From NCBI RefSeq assembly GCF_003590945.1, contig NZ_QYUK01000011.1, positions 1,392,001 through 1,456,000 on the forward strand: a stretch of DNA of 64,000 nt. Reading direction: 5' to 3'. A program made the translations under genes and the position numbers. How positions within the stretch are numbered: the stretch's first letter is position 1; every line of letters begins with the position of its first letter. This document shows positions 7,614-59,008 of the stretch, one piece after another. This DNA comes from Oleomonas cavernae. Its GTDB lineage: Bacteria; Pseudomonadota; Alphaproteobacteria; Zavarziniales; Zavarziniaceae. The notes beneath the pieces were generated by a model. It ran no database searches. It saw nothing but the letters and a program-made list of their open reading frames with translations, and was not told the origin of the DNA.

Positions 7614-10271
7614 ATGGCCGTTGACGTGTCCTACTCCCTGGTCCAGCAGGGGAACACCGAGTTTCTTTCCTTCGGCACATCGGCCAATGCGGATGTGGTC
7701 GGTTATGCCGATGGCGGCTTTGCCGTCGTGGCGGATTTCCCCGGCACTGCCGAGTCGACCCTCGTCACTTACAGCAGCCTCGGCAACCCGAGCGGCCAGT
7801 TCTTCCTCGACATGCTCGATCCGGCGGTGTCCCGGCTCGGTAATGGCGACGTCGTCATGGCGGCGGCGACCACGACGGACATCCAGGTCCTGATCGGCGA
7901 GGCGAACGGCGGCGCCATCGTCACCAGCGGTTCCATCAGCTTCTCGGGCGGCAGCGCCACGGACGTCGCCGGCCTCAAGGACGGCAGCAACCGCTATGTC
8001 GTCGCAAACCAGATCGAATTCGGCGGCTCGGACCGCGACATCCGGGTGACCATCGTCGACGGCATCAGCGTCGTCCTCAGTTTCCAGGTCGACGCCTCGA
8101 CGGCCGATGACCGGGCCCCCAGCATCGCCGCCCTGAACGACGGCGGCTTTGCCGTCGCCTGGGAGCGTCATGCCGGCGCCGAGACCGAGGTCTGGTACGC
8201 GGTCTACGAAGCCGGCGGCGCCGTCCGCAAGGCGCCGACGCTGCTCGATACCGATGGCACGATCAACCAGCATCCCAGCGTCACCGCGCTGGCCTCGGGC
8301 GGCTTTGTCGTTGCCTATGAGGACAACGAGTTTTTCGGCCAGCCCATCGGCATCAATCACCTGCAATTCTCGGCCGCAGGCGATGCCGTGGCCAGCTATC
8401 TCGGCGGGTCGATCTTCGCCGACAGCACCGATCCCAGTGCCACCACCCTGTCCAACGGCCTGCTGCTGACCAGCTTCACGGCGGCGGGGAACATCAGGGC
8501 CAGCCTCTTCGATCCGGCGGCTGGAAACCCGTTCCTGACCGATCTCGTCGATCCCTTCGTGATCGCGGGCAGCGGGGATGCCGAAACCCAGTCCGCCGTC
8601 TCCGCCCTGAACCTTGCGCGTGTCGTCGCGACCTACAAGTTGAACGACACTTTCATTGCCGAAGCCGTCTTCCAGCTGGAACGCACCACCTCGGGCGACG
8701 GGGATGCCAATGTGCTTGCGGGCGACGAGGCGGTCGACCGCATGTTCGGCGGCGGTGGCAACGACACGCTGGACGGCGGCGCCAACAATGACCGGCTCGA
8801 CGGTCAGGCCGGCGCCGACACGATGACCGGCGGCACGGGCGACGACGAATATGGCGTCGACGATGCCGGCGATGTGGTCGTCGAGGTTTCGGGCGGCGGC
8901 GACGATACGGTCAGGAGCGCCATCGACTACACGCTAGGCGCCAATCTGGAGCGTCTGATCCTGGAGGGCGGCGCCCTCGAGGGCATTGGCAACAGCCTGG
9001 CCAACGCCATCACCGGCAATGCCCTGGCCAATATCCTCAATGGCGGGCGCGGCGCCGACACCATGTCCGGCGGCAGCGGCAACGACATCTATGTCGTCGA
9101 CAACCTGGGAGACCAGGTCGTCGAGGGCGCCGGCGAGGGCATCGACCTCGTGCAGAGCTCGGCCACCCACACGCTTTCCGCCAATGTCGAGAACCTGCGC
9201 CTGACCGGCACTGCCTCGACGACCGGCACGGGTAACGCGCTCGATAACGGCATGACCGGCAACACCGCCGCCAACCGCCTGTTCGGCCTGGCCGGCATCG
9301 ACACGATCGGCGGCGGGGCCGGCAACGACACGCTCGAGGGCGGCGACGACGACGACGTTCTTTCGGGTGACGCGGGCGACGACACGCTGCTGGGGCAGGC
9401 CGGCAACGATACGCTCGATGGCGGCACCGGCAACGACAGCATGCGCGGCGGCACCGGCGACGACATCTACATCGTGGATTCGGTCGGCGATACGATCACC
9501 GAGGCCGGCGGCGGCGGCTTCGACACGGTGCGCAGCACCGTCAGCTTCACCCTGGGGAGCGGCCTGGACACCCTGGAACTGGTCACCAGCCAGGCGGTGG
9601 ACGGCACCGGCAACAGCCTTGCCAACACCATCACCGGCGGCGCCGGCGCCAATGTCCTGTCGGGCCTGGGCGGGGCCGACGCGCTGATCGGCAATTCGGG
9701 CAGCGATACGCTGGACGGCGGCACGGGTGCCGACACGATGACAGGCAATGCCGGCAACGACACCTATGTGGTCGACAATGCGGGCGACGCCGTCATCGAA
9801 GGGGCGAGCGGCGGCACCGACACGACCCGCGCCGGCATCAGCTACACCCTCACCGCCAATGTCGAAAACCTGGTGCAGACCGGCGCCGGCAACATCGCCG
9901 GCACGGGCAACAGCCTGGCCAACAGCCTCACCGGCAACAGCGGCGCCAACGCCTTGAACGGCGCCGACGGCAAGGACACGATCGACGGCAGGGCCGGGGC
10001 GGACACCCTCACCGGCGGGGCCGGCAACGACGTGTTCGTCTTCGAGGCGGAGCAGGCGAACGGCGATACGGTGATCGATTTCGACGGCAACGGCGCCTCG
10101 GCCGGGGACAGCCTGCGTTTCACCGGCTACGGCACGGCCGAGGATGGCGCTCTCTTCATCCAGCTCAATGCCACGCAATGGCTGATCGTCTCCTTCGGCG
10201 GCGGCATCCAGGACACCATCACTTTCGCCAACGCCGCCGCCATCCACGCCAGCGACTTCGTCTTCGTCTAA
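7614..10271 (+). CDS. RTX calcium-binding secreted protein
   Basis: 885 residues. Residues 1 to about 350 form a repetitive beta-rich domain with repeats like DGGFAVVADF, NDGGFAVAWE and SGGFVVAYEDN. Residues about 360-840 carry many glycine/aspartate nonapeptides of the GGxGxDxLx type (for example GGGGNDTLDGG, GGSGNDIYVVDN). These alternate with YTLGANLERL-like segments typical of bacterial RTX proteins. Such repeats bind calcium outside the cell, and the C-terminus (DTITFANAAAIHASDFVFV) resembles a type I secretion signal. There is no N-terminal Sec signal, as expected for that route. No catalytic domain was recognised, so it may be a surface-layer, adhesion or matrix protein. No type I exporter genes are nearby. 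An ATG with a GGGGA site 8 bases upstream sets the start. Confidence 0.85.
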   Translation: MAVDVSYSLVQQGNTEFLSFGTSANADVVGYADGGFAVVADFPGTAESTLVTYSSLGNPSGQFFLDMLDPAVSRLGNGDVVMAAATTTDIQVLIGEANGGAIVTSGSISFSGGSATDVAGLKDGSNRYVVANQIEFGGSDRDIRVTIVDGISVVLSFQVDASTADDRAPSIAALNDGGFAVAWERHAGAETEVWYAVYEAGGAVRKAPTLLDTDGTINQHPSVTALASGGFVVAYEDNEFFGQPIGINHLQFSAAGDAVASYLGGSIFADSTDPSATTLSNGLLLTSFTAAGNIRASLFDPAAGNPFLTDLVDPFVIAGSGDAETQSAVSALNLARVVATYKLNDTFIAEAVFQLERTTSGDGDANVLAGDEAVDRMFGGGGNDTLDGGANNDRLDGQAGADTMTGGTGDDEYGVDDAGDVVVEVSGGGDDTVRSAIDYTLGANLERLILEGGALEGIGNSLANAITGNALANILNGGRGADTMSGGSGNDIYVVDNLGDQVVEGAGEGIDLVQSSATHTLSANVENLRLTGTASTTGTGNALDNGMTGNTAANRLFGLAGIDTIGGGAGNDTLEGGDDDDVLSGDAGDDTLLGQAGNDTLDGGTGNDSMRGGTGDDIYIVDSVGDTITEAGGGGFDTVRSTVSFTLGSGLDTLELVTSQAVDGTGNSLANTITGGAGANVLSGLGGADALIGNSGSDTLDGGTGADTMTGNAGNDTYVVDNAGDAVIEGASGGTDTTRAGISYTLTANVENLVQTGAGNIAGTGNSLANSLTGNSGANALNGADGKDTIDGRAGADTLTGGAGNDVFVFEAEQANGDTVIDFDGNGASAGDSLRFTGYGTAEDGALFIQLNATQWLIVSFGGGIQDTITFANAAAIHASDFVFV

Positions 10272-10482: not shown

Positions 10483-10857
10483 ATGACCAGATTCATGGCA
10501 CTGGGGCTCGGCGCCCTGGTTTCTTTCGCCGTCGCCGCGGCCGGCTCGGCCGCCGGCGCGCAGGAGGCCGGTAAACCGATCCTGAGCGGGATGGTCGCCG
10601 AGAACGACCCGCCGGTCCAACTGGTGCGCGACGCCTTGACCTCGTTCCAGCGAACCCACGGCCGCTGGCCGTCCAGCCTCGACGAGCTGGCCGCCTATGC
10701 CGGCGAGCGCGGTCACCCGATCGACTTCGCCGCCTTCTCGGCAACCCGCTATGCGGTGCAGCAGGCCAATGGCGCCTTGGTTGCCCTGTTCGAGTTCACG
10801 GCGGCCGGCTCGAACGCCAGCGGCGCCTTCGCCGTCGCCGTCTACGATATCCGTTGA
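10483..10857 (+). CDS. Small exported protein of unknown function
   Basis: 124 residues. The N-terminus MTRFMALGLGALVSFAVAAAGSAAGAQ is a Sec signal peptide with a likely cut after AGA or GAQ, so the mature protein of about 100 residues is periplasmic. The mature part contains DALTSFQRTHGRWPSSLDEL, a pattern seen in pseudopilin-like and other small exported proteins, but no family could be assigned. I chose the ATG at 10483, 5 bases after a GGGGGAA site, over a GTG at 10462. A lipoprotein gene starts 12 bp downstream, so the two are probably co-expressed. Confidence 0.65.
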   Translation: MTRFMALGLGALVSFAVAAAGSAAGAQEAGKPILSGMVAENDPPVQLVRDALTSFQRTHGRWPSSLDELAAYAGERGHPIDFAAFSATRYAVQQANGALVALFEFTAAGSNASGAFAVAVYDIR

Positions 10858-10868
10858 AGGAGGCCGCC

Positions 10869-11501
10869 ATGCGCATCGGCAAATTCGGGCGCTTCAGCGC
10901 GCCCTTGTTCGCGGCGACTGTCCTCGCCAGCTGCATCGAACCGCCGGCCTCGCCACCGGCGCCACCCCCACCGCCGCCGCCCCCGGCGGTCGAAGCGCCG
11001 CCGGCCAAGCCGCTGAACCTGGACGCGGTGGACAAGGCGGTCTCGAAGGCTTCCAGCGATACCGGCGGCACCACGATCTACACCAATGTCTTCAACTTGT
11101 CGGGCGGCAGCTGCGTGGAGGCCTCGACCCGGCGCGGCCAGGCGATCGCCAACAATCTCCAGACCCTGAAGAACAATGGCGACATTCCGGCCGACCACAC
11201 CATCAAAGTCTATACCTACAGCGGTTACCGCGTGCCCGGCTTTGCCGACGCCAGCATCCACACCTACACGGTGACGCAGATTCAGGGGCCGAACGGCAGG
11301 CCCGTGGCGACCTGGATCTCCGACAACTACCTGGGCCCCAATTCGGTGACCCGGAAGCCGGGCGACGGCGGTTACAGCGACTGGACCGATACCATGACCC
11401 AGGACGTGACGCCGCCCACGCCCGGCGGCGGCCCGCCACCCCGGCGGGACGGCGGCGGGGGTGGCGGTGGGGGCGGCGGCGGTGGGGGCGGCGGTGACTG
11501 A
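10869..11501 (+). CDS. Putative lipoprotein with Pro-rich and poly-Gly segments
   Basis: 210 residues. A lipobox (TVLASC, Cys22) ends a hydrophobic signal, so lipid anchoring is expected. A proline-rich spacer of about 25 residues follows, then a globular part of about 130 residues (NVFNLSGGSCVEASTRRGQA, VYTYSGYRVPGFADASIHTY) with no known family. The C-terminus is an uninterrupted run of about 15 glycines ending in Asp. The ATG follows a strong AAGGAGG site (10857-10863). The 3' end overlaps the GTG of the DUF1513-like gene by 8 bases. The glycine tract is encoded by GGN runs that could slip during replication, so the tail length may vary or be mis-sequenced. Confidence 0.65.
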   Translation: MRIGKFGRFSAPLFAATVLASCIEPPASPPAPPPPPPPPAVEAPPAKPLNLDAVDKAVSKASSDTGGTTIYTNVFNLSGGSCVEASTRRGQAIANNLQTLKNNGDIPADHTIKVYTYSGYRVPGFADASIHTYTVTQIQGPNGRPVATWISDNYLGPNSVTRKPGDGGYSDWTDTMTQDVTPPTPGGGPPPRRDGGGGGGGGGGGGGGGD

Positions 11502-12793
11502 CCCCGTCCCGCCTCCTGCCTTCACCCGCCGGGCGGCACTGAAAGCGGCGGCTGGCCTTGGCGCCACGGCCCTGGGCCTGGGGGGAGCGGCCCGCAGCCT
11601 TGCCGGGGCCGCCCGCCCCGCCTGTACGTGCCGGGCTACCGGACGGCGCAAGCGGCGGAGGACGGCCGCCTGATCGTCGATCTGCCGGGCGTGTCCCGGG
11701 TGCCCGCGGGCTGGACCGGGCCGCGCACGCTGTTGTCGGTGGTCGACCTGGCCTTCCCGAGGCACCGCCGAAACGGGCGGCGTTTCCGGTGCGCGGGCAT
11801 GGCGTCACCCTGATGCCGGCGGCTGGCGTGGGCATCCTCGCCGGCATGGAAGGCGACACGGTCGTCAGCTTCGACCTGGAGACCCTCGACCTTGTCGCCA
11901 TGGTGCGTCCGGCCCGGCCCGGCTGGCTCTTCGGCGGCCATCCGATCCCCCTGCCCGACGGCCGCCACGTCGCCGTCGCCGAGCGTGCGCCAGCCGATCC
12001 GGCCACGGGCGACACCGGCGCCGACCTCGCCCGCCTTGCCGGCCGGGTGGTCATCCGCGATGCCGCCTCGCTGGCCCCGGTTAGCGATTTTTCGAGCTAT
12101 GGCCTGCGGCCGCACGACATGCAGGTGACGGGCGACCACCGCCATCTGGTGATCGCCAACTACGGCAGTACCGTCGCCGCCGATGCGGTGGCAGGCCAGC
12201 CGGTCATCCCCCACGTGGTCGCCCCCTGCGCGACGATCGTCGAGCTGTCGTCCGGCCGGCTGGTCGATCGCATCGCCGGCGCCGATCCGGCCGTCGAGTT
12301 GCGTCACCTGGTGGCGCCCTCGCTCGACCGCATCTTCGGGGTGACGGCCAGGGTGGTTCCGGCCGCCCCCGGCGCGGGCAGCGAGCGCGACCCCGCCGCC
12401 GAGCCGGGCCTCGACTATGCCCCGGCCCTGCCACTGAAAATCGTCGGCCGCCAGGCCCGCCCGCTGATGGCCGATCAGGCGGACCTGGCCCGCCACGGCC
12501 TCTCGATCGCCGCCAATCCGGCCGCCGACGAAATCCTCGTCACCTTCCCTGCCCGCCATCTGATCGCGGTTTTCGACGGCGCGACCGGCAACACCAGGAA
12601 GCTCATCCGCACCGATGCGCTGGGCCTGCATTGGCCCTGCGGCCTGGCCCTGTCGCCCGACGGCGGCAGTTGGTACGTTACCGGTTACTGGGAGGGCATC
12701 ATGACCCTGCGCGCCGACAACCATGCCCTGGCGGGGATTGCCGCCCTGCCCGCCTGGTGGGGCCACAGCCACATGGTGGTGGCCGGCGCCTGA
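11494..12793 (+). CDS. DUF1513-like Tat-exported protein (two apparent frameshifts)
   Basis: About 433 residues once two single-base losses are allowed for. The first frame (GTG at 11494) gives a twin-arginine signal, FTRRAALKAAAGLGATALGL. The next frame (about 11627-11760) gives LYVPGYRTAQAAEDGRLIVD and following residues. The third frame (about 11760 to the stop at 12793) holds the body, with FGGHPIPLPDGRHVAVAER, LRPHDMQVTGDHRHLVIANY and WPCGLALSPDGGSWYVTGYW. The last three are beta-propeller-like repeats that resemble DUF1513 proteins, whose function is unknown. The breaks map near 11610-11625 (GCCCGCCCCGCC) and 11758-11765 (TTCCCGAGG). Both need one added base, which fits sequencing error. 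The GTG overlaps the upstream lipoprotein stop, so the genes are coupled. Confidence 0.6.
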
Positions 12794-13682: not shown

Positions 13683-14063
13683 ATGATCGATCACGTTTCC
13701 ATCGCGGTCAGCGACCTTGCCAGGAGCACCGCCTTCTACGAGCAGGTGCTGGCGCCGCTGGGCCTCACGCTGATGGTTCCCTTCGAGGACAGGTCGGGCT
13801 TCGGCAAGCGCTATCCCGAATTCTGGCTGAACCTGCGGCCGGGCCTTGCCCCGGTGCCGCGCGACACCGGCATCCACATCTGCCTGCGCGCGCCCTCGGA
13901 CGAGGCGGTCAGCGCGTTCCACGCCGCGGCGCTGGCGAATGGCGGCGCCGATGCGGGCGAGCCCGGCCCGCGGCTAGCCGCCATGACCACCTATTTCGGC
14001 GCCTTCATCTTCGACCCCGACGGCAACAAGCTGGAAGCCGTGTGCTTCCCGAAGGCCGAATGA
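13683..14063 (+). CDS. VOC/glyoxalase-family protein
   Basis: 126 residues forming a single vicinal-oxygen-chelate unit: MIDHVSIAVSDLARSTAFYE at the start, a central HICLRAPS strand and the terminal FDPDGNKLEAVCF. His4, a mid-chain His (HICLR) and Glu near the end (LEAV) are the usual metal ligands of this fold. It belongs to the broad glyoxalase/bleomycin-resistance/dioxygenase group, so the reaction cannot be fixed. An ATG after CCAGG sets the start. mazG begins 31 bp downstream on the same strand. Confidence 0.75.
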   Translation: MIDHVSIAVSDLARSTAFYEQVLAPLGLTLMVPFEDRSGFGKRYPEFWLNLRPGLAPVPRDTGIHICLRAPSDEAVSAFHAAALANGGADAGEPGPRLAAMTTYFGAFIFDPDGNKLEAVCFPKAE

Positions 14064-14897: not shown

Positions 14898-16706
14898 CTA
14901 AGCGAAGATGAAATCGGCGCTGGTCAGGTTGGCCGGCAGGAAGTTCTCCAGCCGCACGGAATCCCCGGCCGTGTTGAAGGTGATCAGCGTATCGCTGTCG
15001 CCGTGGTATTCGCCGCCGGCCGCGGTCATTTCCGCCAGGGAGTGATAGCCGAAGCCGGAGACGTCGATCTTGTCGTGACCATCCGTGAAGTCGAAGATCT
15101 TGTCGCGGCCCGAGCCGGCCGCGAAGGTGAAGACATCGTTGCCGCCGCCGCCGGTGAACTCGTCCGCCCGGATGCCGCCGGTGATGCGGTCGGCGCCCGA
15201 ACCGCCGGTGATGGTGAAGATCTTGATCCGGCTGAGGTGCAGGGTGCCGTCGCCGCCATTGACCGAGACGTCGAGAACGGTGCTGCCCACGCGCGTGAAG
15301 ACGACGGGTGTCGTATAGGCCGAAAGATCGATGATCCCGTGGTCGCTGCCGCCGCCGCCGTCCCAGGAATGATGGCCGGTGGGCAGTTGCATGAAGGTGA
15401 TGTCGTCATCTCCCGCACCGGTGCGCAGGCGCAGCACCTCGATATTGGTGAAGCTGGTGCCACCGACCAGGTGATTGACGATCCCCGCACCGAACTGGAC
15501 GGAGAGGATTACATCCTCGACGCTCGCGGAAACGTCGAGATCCAGTTCCTCCCTGCCCGTACCGCCGTCGATCGTATCGCCAAGGTCCGTACCGAAGGAA
15601 AAGCCGTCGTCCCCGGCACCGCCGTTCAGCACATCGGCCCCGCCTTCGCCGTCGAGCGAATCGCCGCCGTCGCCGCCGTTCAGCACATCGTCGCCGTTGC
15701 CGCCGCGCAGCAGATCGCCGCCGCCGCGGCCCTCGATCACATCGTTGCCGGCATAGCCCAGCAGGTAATCGCCGGCATTACTGCCGATCAGGGTATCGTC
15801 GCCGCCATGGCCGTGCAGCCAGATCGTACTGGCAGAAAGGTGACCGTCGAGGTAATCGTCGCCGGAGCCGGTTTCGAGATAGAGGCCGTCGAAGTTCTTG
15901 AACGTGGTTCCGTCCTGCAACTGGTTCAACTTGCCTGACGCGGGGTTGTAGACCAGGGTCAGGTCGATGGTGACATTCCAGCGGTAGAGCTCCAGAAAAT
16001 TGCCGCCGCGGCCGCCGTTGAGCACGTCGACGCCGCCGATATCGTGGATCAGGTCGTCGCCGTCGCCGCCGTTGATGTTGTTGTCGCCGCCATAGTCGGA
16101 AATGAAATCGCCGCCACCCCCGCCATTGATAATGCTGCCACTGCCCTCGACCCGGATATCGTCGCCGTACCTGGTACCGGTCAGGGTAACGGCCTCGATG
16201 CCCACGAGCTGGGTCACCTCCTCGTTGCCGATATAGCCGATGCCGCTTTCGAAATAGAGGCCGGCGCTGGCCTGCCCGTAGTTGAGGATGGCGCGGTCGA
16301 AGCCGTCGCCCCCGTCGTAGATGTCGCGGCCGCCCCGGCCATCCAGCACGTCGTCCCCCGCCCCGCCGAAAAGCTGATCGTCCCGCGTGCCGCCGATGAT
16401 GGTATTGTTCAGGTCGTTGCCGGTGAAGAAGCGGTTGCCCGACTTCGTGGCCGTCAGGTTTTCGACGTTTGCGCCCAGCGTATAGGTCAGCAGGCTGGTC
16501 TTGACGGTGTCGACGCCGGTGCTCGTCTCGTTTACGGTGTCGCCGGCATTGTCGACGATGTAGATGTCGTCGCCGCTGGCGCCGTAGAGCGCATCGGCCC
16601 CCTTGCCGCCGTCCAGCGTATCGTCGCCGGAGAGGCCGCGGAGGATGTCGTCGCCATCCGTGCCGGTCAGGAGATCGTCATCCCCGGTTCCATTGATCAC
16701 GGCCAT
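14898..16706 (-). CDS. Second RTX calcium-binding protein
   Basis: 602 residues from the ATG at 16706 (MAVINGTGDDDLLTG), which follows a GGGGGAA-like site. An in-frame ATG at 16808 would add 34 non-conserved residues. The protein is RTX nonapeptides almost from end to end (TGTDGDDILRGLSGDDTLDGG, GGAGDDVLDGRGG, GGNGDDVLNGGDGG and others), broken by short beta segments. The C-terminus (DSVRLENFLPANLTSADFIFA) is of the type found in type I secretion substrates. No enzyme domain was recognised. It differs from the first RTX protein by lacking the long N-terminal repeat domain. It is expected to be extracellular and calcium-folded, exported by a system outside the window. Confidence 0.85.
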   Translation of the reverse strand: MAVINGTGDDDLLTGTDGDDILRGLSGDDTLDGGKGADALYGASGDDIYIVDNAGDTVNETSTGVDTVKTSLLTYTLGANVENLTATKSGNRFFTGNDLNNTIIGGTRDDQLFGGAGDDVLDGRGGRDIYDGGDGFDRAILNYGQASAGLYFESGIGYIGNEEVTQLVGIEAVTLTGTRYGDDIRVEGSGSIINGGGGGDFISDYGGDNNINGGDGDDLIHDIGGVDVLNGGRGGNFLELYRWNVTIDLTLVYNPASGKLNQLQDGTTFKNFDGLYLETGSGDDYLDGHLSASTIWLHGHGGDDTLIGSNAGDYLLGYAGNDVIEGRGGGDLLRGGNGDDVLNGGDGGDSLDGEGGADVLNGGAGDDGFSFGTDLGDTIDGGTGREELDLDVSASVEDVILSVQFGAGIVNHLVGGTSFTNIEVLRLRTGAGDDDITFMQLPTGHHSWDGGGGSDHGIIDLSAYTTPVVFTRVGSTVLDVSVNGGDGTLHLSRIKIFTITGGSGADRITGGIRADEFTGGGGNDVFTFAAGSGRDKIFDFTDGHDKIDVSGFGYHSLAEMTAAGGEYHGDSDTLITFNTAGDSVRLENFLPANLTSADFIFA

Positions 16707-16868
16707 CACACGTTCCCCCGAACACGGCGCGCCCCGGCGCAACCAAGGCGCGATACTATAATCACAAGAGGTGCCCGAGGACAGAAGAACCAGAAGAGCC
16801 TGGATCACGTCGACGCTTGACGACCGGCGAAAAGAGTTCTTATTTTGTTCCTAACGGAGGAAGCCGAG

Positions 16869-54587: not shown

Positions 54588-54591
<4 letters not shown>
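52675..54591 (+). CDS. PpiD-like periplasmic folding chaperone
   Basis: 638 residues. One N-terminal membrane anchor (WVVRIFLGILMVSFGIGIW), a SurA-N-like chaperone region with TVGDTEISSQAFTVALDREV, and a central parvulin-type domain (EIVQMVLKTQAEADTAVSKL ... GGPVETPLGWHVFKVVKVEA). A long C-terminal helical region follows. Inner-membrane-anchored, facing the periplasm, helping proteins leaving the Sec channel. It overlaps trpE by ATGA, the common alphaproteobacterial arrangement. Confidence 0.9.
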
Positions 54592-56101
<1,510 letters not shown>

Positions 56102-57383
56102 TGCCCACCGCCTCGATCGCCTCGCCCGAACGCCTGGCGATCACGGCCGAGACCGGCACGAAGACGATCCCCCGGGCCTTGGCCTGGGGGATGAAGCGGC
56201 GCAGGGCCTCGATCGTCGCGGCATGCGGGTGGCCGATGGCGATCGCCATGCCCTTCTCGCGCGCCTTGCGCTCCACCAGCACCAGTTGCGCCTCGATGGC
56301 GCTGGCACCGATCTCGTTGTCGAGGAAGACGTCACGCGAGGCAGTGGGAATGCCGGCGGCGCGCGCCGTCTCCTCGCCGACGCTGGTCGCCGCGGTGCGG
56401 GAATCGAGGAAGGCCAGGCCGCGGCCCTTCAATTCCTCGATCACCACCTTCATGCCCGCCGCATCCGATGAAAACCGGCTGCCCATGTGGTTGTTGATGC
56501 CGACGAAGCCGTCGTGACGATCGAGGTGCCAGCGCAACCGTGCCCGGATCTCGGCCGGGCTCAAGTCGACGGTCAAGGCCTTGGTGCCGGGGTCGGCCTT
56601 GCCCTGCGGTTCCATGGGGACATGGACCAGCAGTTCATCGCCCAGCGCCCGCGCCCGCCTGGCATAATCCGTCATGCCCTCGGCATAGCCCATGATCGAC
56701 AGGGTGATCGGCGCCTCCAGCGACAGGAGTTCCTCGGCCTCCTTCTTGTTCAGGCCGTCATCGTCGATGACGATGGCGATGGCCGGGCGCTTGCCCACCA
56801 CCGGCGAGGCGGCGGCAAAGCGCTGCCAGGCCGGGCGCGCGTCATAGGGAATTTCGTCGGCCGTTACCGGCGGCGGCGGCGCCACGACGGCGGTTTCGCG
56901 CGGCCGCGGGGCGGGTTCGACCGGGGTGCGCGGCGTCTGGGCCAATTGCTCGGCCGGGCTGGGTGACGGCGCGGCAGCGACGGCCGACGGCGCCGGGCGG
57001 GCTGCCGGCGTTTGCCGCGCCACCGTGGTCTCGTCCATCGAGCGCATCAGCAGGAAACCGACCGCGACCGCCACGATGGTCGCCCAGCCGAACACGATCG
57101 CCCGGCGCACCCCCGGCCGGCCGACAAAGGGACGCTTGCGGCCGCCGGCCTTGCGGCGGCCGTTGCCTGTCTTCACCCGCTTGCGCTGTCCGCCACTGCT
57201 GGCCATCGGTGCCCGATTCGCGATCCTTAACCAGAAATAGCGCTGCTTGGGCCCGGGAGCCACCATCGCGACATGACTCACATGCCTTGCCGCACTTGAC
57301 GATTGCACGGCCACGGGGTTGGATCGGCGTTCCGCCGCGACAGGAGGTTGCGGCGCGTTCTCTCGTGTCTGGAACCCAAGCCG

Positions 57384-59008
57384 ATGATCGCGTTGATCGA
57401 CAACTACGACAGCTTCACCTACAACCTCTACCACTTCCTGGGCGAGTTGGGTGCGTCTGTCGAGGTCTGGCGCAACGACGCGATCACGGTCGACGAGCTG
57501 GAAGCCAAGAAGCCCCGCGCCATTGTGCTCTCGCCCGGCCCCTGCGACCCTGATCGCGCCGGCATCTGCCTCGAAACCGTGAAACGCCTTGGCCCCAAGA
57601 TCCCGATTCTGGGCGTGTGTCTTGGCCATCAGGCCATCGGCCAGGCCTATGGCGGCCGCGTCGTGCGGGCGCAGACCCTGATGCACGGCAAGATCAGCGC
57701 GGTCAGCCATCGCGGCAAATCGGTCTTCCAGGGCCTGCCGACCCCGTTCAAGGCCACGCGCTATCACAGCCTGGTGGTCGCTCGCGAGGACCTGCCGGAG
57801 ACCCTCGACGTGACGGCCGAGACCGAGGACGGCCTAGCCATGGGCCTGGCCCACAAGGTCCATCCGGTCCACGGCGTCCAGTTCCACCCGGAAAGCATCG
57901 CCAGCGAGCACGGCATGGTGCTGCTGGAAAACTTCCTGGTGCTGGCCAATGCCCTGCCCGGCAACCAGCGCAAGATGCGCGCCCCCACCACCAGCGCCTT
58001 CAAGTCGGTCCTCACCGAAGTCGCCACCGGCAAGCCGCTGAGCCGGGCCGTCGCCCGCGACGCCTTCGAACTGATGATGTCGGGCGATGCCAGCCAGGCC
58101 CAGATCGGCGCCTTCCTGATGGCCCTGCGCATCCGGGGCGAGACCGTCGACGAACTGGCCGCCGGGGTCGAGACCATGCGCGCCAAGATGCGCAGGGTGA
58201 AGGCGCCGGCCGATGCGATCGACGTCTGCGGCACCGGCGGCGACGGTGCCGGGACCTGGAACATCTCCAGCGCCACCGGCTTCGTCCTGGCGGGCCTGGG
58301 CGTGCCGGTGGCCAAGCACGGCAACCGCGCACTGTCCTCGCGCTCGGGCTCGGCCGAGGTGCTGGCCGCCCTGGGGGTGAAGCTGGACCTGGAGCCCGAC
58401 GCGATCAGCCGCTGCATCGCCAAGGCCGGCATCGGCTTCATGTTCGCGCCCAACCATCACAGCGCCATGCGCTTCGTCGCCCCCGTGCGCACCGAACTGG
58501 GCACCCGCACCCTGTTCAACCTGCTGGGCCCCTGTCCAACCCGGCGGGCGTGAAGCGGCAGTTGATCGGCGTCTTCGCCCCGGCCTGGGTCCGTCCGGTG
58601 GCGGAGGTGCTGAAGGTCGTGGGGACCGAGAAGGCCTGGGTCGTCCATGGTTCCGACGGCCTGGACGAGGTGACCACCACCGGCCCGACCCATGTTGCCG
58701 CCCTGGAACCCGACGGGACGATCCGCGAATTCGATGTAACCCCGGAAGGGGCAGGCTTGCCCCGTGCCCAGCCGGCGGACCTCAAAGGCGGCGACCCGCA
58801 GACCAACACGGTGGCCATCCGCGCCCTGTTCGACGGGGCCAAGGGTGCCTACCGCGATGTCGTGTGCCTGAACGTCGCGGCCAGCCTGATCGTGGCCGGC
58901 AAGGTCGAAACCCTCAAGGAGGGCGTCGCCCTGGCTCAAGCCTGCATCGACGACGGCCGGGCGAAGAAGGCGGTCGAAATGCTGGTCAAGGTATCGAACA
59001 AGCCATGA
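57384..59008 (+). CDS. trpGD: TrpG-TrpD in one frame (fusion; one apparent frameshift)
   Basis: About 541 residues after restoring one base. Residues 1-193 are the TrpG amidotransferase: [20 protein letters not shown], Cys79 in [10 protein letters not shown], His168/Glu170 in GVQFHPES. With only about ten linking residues the frame continues into TrpD phosphoribosyltransferase ([56 protein letters not shown]). The frame breaks at the C4 run 58529-58532. The other frame gives [20 protein letters not shown] through to VSNKP. Most alphaproteobacteria have separate trpG and trpD, so the fusion needs confirmation. The sequence AAGATGCGC at the joint could be a damaged AAGTGATGCGC stop/start. The 3' end overlaps trpC by ATGA. 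Confidence 0.85.

Follow-up and report, generated by a model that had tools for sequence, protein, structure and literature searches.

The window, a stretch of 64,000 nucleotides from Oleomonas cavernae, contains three consecutive genes with export signals, and they raise the question of whether these genes act as one unit and what that unit might do. The initial annotation had described a 124-residue Sec-exported protein (P1), a lipoprotein with a proline spacer and about 15 terminal glycines (P2), and a single Tat-exported DUF1513-like propeller protein (P3), with gaps of 12 bp or overlaps between them, and had suggested an envelope complex. The first two descriptions hold: P1 is an open reading frame (ORF) beginning with a signal peptide, and P2 carries the lipobox LASC22 and ends in 15 glycines, an aspartate and a stop codon (Table 1). 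P2 and P3 do overlap, and the P1-P2 gap is 11 bp in the sequence and the ORF list, not 12 bp. The export signals agree with a location in the envelope, with the caveat that the Tat signal in the window is out of frame with the propeller domain. A promoter scan found no sigma-70-like site.

Table 1. Features of the trio, in positions of the window
Feature	Position	Strand	Description	Basis
P1	10483..10857	+	exported, 124 aa; globular domain predicted to be pilin-like; lacks a class III prepilin leader	ORF
P2	10869..11501	+	210-aa lipoprotein; proline spacer, conserved core ~48-182, 15-Gly tail	ORF
Glycine tract	11451..11495	+	15 Gly codons, GGC/GGT/GGG mixed, end of P2	read from sequence
P3 fragment 1	11494..11673	+	Tat-like signal peptide; frame stops at 11673	ORF
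P3 fragment 2	11616..11762	+	first ~47 mature-domain residues, second frame	match to Z. marina
P3 fragment 3	11763..12793	+	remaining DUF1513 domain, third frame	ORF 11558-12793

Comparison with other genomes showed that the trio recurs. It is complete and contiguous in Zavarzinia marina (L015), between gltB and a nucleoside deoxyribosyltransferase-like gene, and a Zavarzinia MAG (L016) carries gltB, P1, P2 and the start of a P3 that runs off the contig, with a P3 end at the end of another contig. In the window genome no trio separates gltB from the deoxyribosyltransferase gene immediately after it, so the block occupies a different site there; its flanks are an RTX-repeat protein gene and a methyltransferase gene that has mazG as its neighbour in five Zavarzinia genomes. 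Gene order is the same in the Zavarzinia genomes that have the trio, in two genomic contexts, and recurrence of the block at two sites argues more strongly for a functional unit than proximity within a single genome would. The proposal that the three genes belong together is thereby supported, and they were seen apart only among distant DUF1513 relatives.

The trio is an export operon restricted to the genus, and not all Zavarzinia species have it. It is absent from two near-complete Zavarzinia relatives (G002 and G004), and none was seen in a third that is 74% complete (G003). Relatives of P2 outside the genus were absent from 385 genomes of the class, 398 of the phylum, and the genome collection beyond the two Zavarzinia; P1 was likewise not found outside the genus, apart from one borderline match. 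DUF1513 relatives are widespread, and the closest outside relative of P3 seen (G168, 38%) has neither P1 nor P2 alongside.

Two outside matches were set aside: that to P2 in G048 (41%) spans residues 154–207, mostly the low-complexity tail, and the borderline match to P1 in G194 (E 1e-3) lies inside an unrelated 410-aa protein and was taken as chance. A mobile or viral origin was also considered and rejected, no P2 relative being present in viral contigs or plasmids. The P3 relative in G168 (L059, G168 C48, 145–615 and 833–1831) follows an ORF that by eye resembles a FecR-type domain. Large proteins with RTX-type repeats are encoded on both sides of the trio region (7614–10271 and 14898–16808), the first of which matched HemolysinCabind. 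A glyoxalase-family gene (13683–14063) separates the methyltransferase gene from mazG in the window; the pair is directly adjacent in Z. marina and other Zavarzinia.

The description of P3 as one Tat-exported DUF1513 protein does not survive in the window, where a single ORF of this kind is ruled out: the Tat-like peptide, the first domain residues and the remainder of the domain lie in three successive frames, and the earlier reading joined what the sequence does not join. From the GTG at 11494 the first frame reads TRRAALKAAAGLG; its motif TRRAAL corresponds to ITRRRLL of Z. marina and to PSRRQLL of the MAG. The second frame reads RLYVPGYRTAQAAEDGRLIVDLPGVSRVPAGWTGPRTLLSVVDLAFP and spans 11607–11758 by coding-frame scan; its RLYVPGYR...LLSVVDLAFP aligns with RLLVPGYR...LLSVLDLAAP of Z. 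marina. The frame 11558–12793 matches PF07433 (DUF1513) with E 6.5e-16 and 58.7 bits, and the intact Z. marina protein with 73.4 bits, both exceeding the curated Pfam cut-off of 27 bits.

In Z. marina, P3 is one frame of 447 codons (L015:8097-9440) in which the Tat signal is joined to the DUF1513 domain. A search with this protein placed its residues 45–106 at ~11568–11762 of the window (60% identity) and, in an overlapping second frame, residues 69–446 at ~11642–12781; its Tat region aligns in a third window frame. Fragment 3 is ~60% identical to the Z. marina protein, and substitutions in this C-terminal part relative to Z. marina fall at the first, second and third codon positions at 0.28/0.26/0.48. 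No solved structures related to P3 were found.

Two frame breaks within ~160 bp relative to Z. marina might mean that P3 is a true pseudogene in the window strain and that the operon is decaying. We regard this as improbable, because the rest of P3 retains third-position-biased substitutions and comparable breaks occur elsewhere in the same assembly. The trpE gene (window 54588–56098) matches TIGR00564 positions 1–281 in one frame and 281–454 in another, with the break near 55530. In the trpG-trpD region (window 57300–59005) the first frame ends early and trpD resumes in another, between TIGR01245 positions 175 and 176, near 58530. Two genes beyond the window are affected as well: the frame of gltB changes near the 3' end (G000:C8:49922-50913, L042), and that of another DUF1513 gene breaks between profile positions 126 and 129 (G000:C11:2110160-2111085; L018 3143–4290, - strand). 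Frame changes in several core biosynthetic genes indicate assembly indels, and P3 is most likely split over its three frames by one-base sequencing errors. We therefore regard P3 as intact in the organism. The assembly carries frame errors, and frame-based claims anywhere in it require checking against relatives.

Two observations were made at these other loci. In the window, trpG continues into trpD in a single frame (57300–59005), a match to a bifunctional TrpGD model. The second DUF1513 gene clusters with genes that, named by eye from their translations, are imelysin-like, di-haem oxidoreductase-like and iron-binding-protein-like.

At the P2/P3 junction the 15 glycine codons, the last of which shares bases with the candidate GTG start at 11494, are followed by GAC-TGA. 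Both the window and Z. marina have a GTG within the final P2 codons that is in frame with P3, and the MAG also offers an ATG in the P3 frame, immediately past the P2 stop. Translation of P3 is plausibly coupled to that of P2 through the overlapping stop and start, and the GGN codons of the tract may plausibly double as the ribosome-binding (Shine-Dalgarno) sequence of P3.

The initial annotation had further suggested that slippage at the tract could alter both proteins. The overlap with the P3 start on which this suggestion drew is present. A phase-variable switch, in which slippage would change the P2 tail and fuse or separate P2 and P3, is nevertheless very improbable. Tract length does vary between species (15 glycines in the window, 5 in Z. 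marina and 10 in the MAG), and in both the window and Z. marina its codons overlap the start of P3, but the differences are of whole glycines with one sequence per species, and the codons are a mixture of GGC, GGT and GGG whose longest G run is 5 in the window, 3 in Z. marina and 4 in the MAG. Tract length is itself to be treated with caution, since it comes from an indel-prone assembly.

P2 is 56–64% identical to its relatives, and its substitutions fall at the three codon positions at 0.24/0.22/0.37. As in the C-terminal part of P3, they are mostly at third positions, the pattern of proteins under selection. By inspection the lipobox (LASC22 in the window) is LGGC and LAGC in the relatives, as in bacterial lipoproteins. 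The residue after the lipidated cysteine is not aspartate in any of the three proteins, so that by the E. coli rule sorting to the outer membrane would be expected. In all three proteins C82, within the motif NLSGGSCV[ED]A, is the sole cysteine of the mature part besides the lipidated one, and H131 and D152 are also invariant.

An AlphaFold model of P2 from the three sequences has a mean pLDDT of 65 and a pTM of 0.54; blocks of the core reach pLDDT 70–93, except for 44–45 at residues 71–80 and 121–130. Values drop under 50 in the loop that precedes C82 and in the turn leading to H131. The model contains a helix (79–102) and four strands (111–122, 125–139, 145–152 and 160–164); C82 falls at the start of the helix, H131 lies within strand two, and D152 closes strand three. 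Proteins of the papain-like superfamily have the cysteine at the N-terminus of a core helix, the histidine on strand 2 and a polar residue on strand 3 (PMC10318531), and the Cys-His-Asp order in this modest-confidence model agrees with that description. The model thus suggests that P2 probably adopts a papain/transglutaminase-like fold.

Structural comparison gave rows that all lie below the tool's trustworthy level. The best are histidinol-phosphate and inositol monophosphatases (Z 6.7). Three lower-scoring kinds of row have the papain-like arrangement. Vasohibins give Z 4.2–4.8 over at most 123 residues; the MOA protease domain gives Z 4.6, with 53–179 aligned to 189–293, a range that takes in Cys215, His257 and Glu274 of MOA; staphopain C gives Z 3.5. 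Foldseek gave nothing at E below 0.001 for P2 against the PDB, nor did a comparison with the viral structure library. A profile search matched P2 to no family model, including any peptidase or transglutaminase family. A vasohibin profile found nothing in the window genome, and the controls were likewise blank. An assignment of P2 as a phosphatidylinositol phosphodiesterase was rejected, since hmmsearch gave E 0.16 or worse over 78 residues, which is chance level.

These results bear on whether P2 is an enzyme. It could be a non-enzymatic envelope lipoprotein whose conserved cysteine, histidine and aspartate have structural roles, with the trio serving as a module for structure or binding, a reading that has a real but lesser chance of being right. 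Two results fit it: the top structural rows are unrelated phosphatases with a similar helix-sheet arrangement, and no peptidase or transglutaminase profile matches P2. An unpaired invariant cysteine at a helix start, together with an invariant histidine and aspartate at papain-like positions, would however be unusual for a structural role in a periplasmic protein. That P2 is an active enzyme is a reading to which these modelled positions lead us tentatively, at not quite even confidence.

P1 is 46–49% identical to its counterparts in the two Zavarzinia genomes. In the model of the Z. marina protein, residues 41–120 form a block of pLDDT 86–95, folded as two helices, the second of them short, and three antiparallel strands. 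Its weak structural matches include several type IV pilins and pseudopilins, the best being PilA4 (Z 5.8), and Foldseek against the PDB gave nothing at E below 0.001. Pilins and pseudopilins are recognized by a class III leader (Gly/Ala before Phe/Met, with Glu at +5) and a hydrophobic N-terminal helix kept in the mature protein. By inspection P1 has an ordinary signal peptide in place of that leader, so any role resembling that of a pilin head would be as a soluble periplasmic domain.

Taken together, the observations suggest an export operon of Zavarzinia built around P2. P2 would be a lipid-anchored thiol hydrolase of the periplasm, or derived from such an enzyme, in which Cys82, His131 and Asp152 have the papain/transglutaminase-like arrangement; its core would lie between a flexible proline spacer and a glycine-rich tail, and the protein would be sorted to the outer membrane. 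P1, a small exported protein of pilin-like fold, and P3, the Tat-exported DUF1513 propeller, may each be a partner or substrate of P2 in the periplasm. The overlapping stop and start would couple translation of P3 to that of P2, with the GGN codons also acting as ribosome-binding sequence. As a whole, this proposal is a possibility we hold somewhat short of belief. A bolder version, in which P2 would be the first member of a new family of papain-like hydrolases anchored by lipid and would form, with the pilin-fold partner and the DUF1513 propeller, a dedicated envelope-modifying machine in Zavarzinia, seems unlikely on present evidence, and to call the trio a new type of system would be premature. 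DUF1513 is by name a family of unknown function, and no paper in the library searched names it; the trio gives it a second conserved gene neighbourhood and, in P2, a testable candidate enzyme as partner.

Among known systems, P2 most resembles the papain/transglutaminase-like thiol hydrolases, such as the vasohibins (PMC4866520), CPR-C4 of Candidate Phyla Radiation bacteria (PMC9108980) and the MOA protease domain (PMC8244254). It shares with them the predicted succession of a helix with the cysteine at its start, a strand, a strand with the histidine and a strand with Asp/Glu/Ser, as well as a single unpaired cysteine. It differs from them in having no profile match and in being a genus-restricted lipoprotein with proline and glycine linkers, its putative active-site geometry coming from a weak model. 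P1 is like the type IV pilins and the major pseudopilins of type II secretion in its predicted helix and three-stranded sheet and in its best structural rows, and unlike them in its cleaved ordinary signal, in the lack of adjoining pilus or secretion genes and in a Z of 5.8 at best. P3 belongs to a known family, DUF1513 (PF07433), which it matches above the cut-off, and within that family it stands as a divergent subfamily, having an N-terminal segment of its own and, in P1 and P2, different neighbours.
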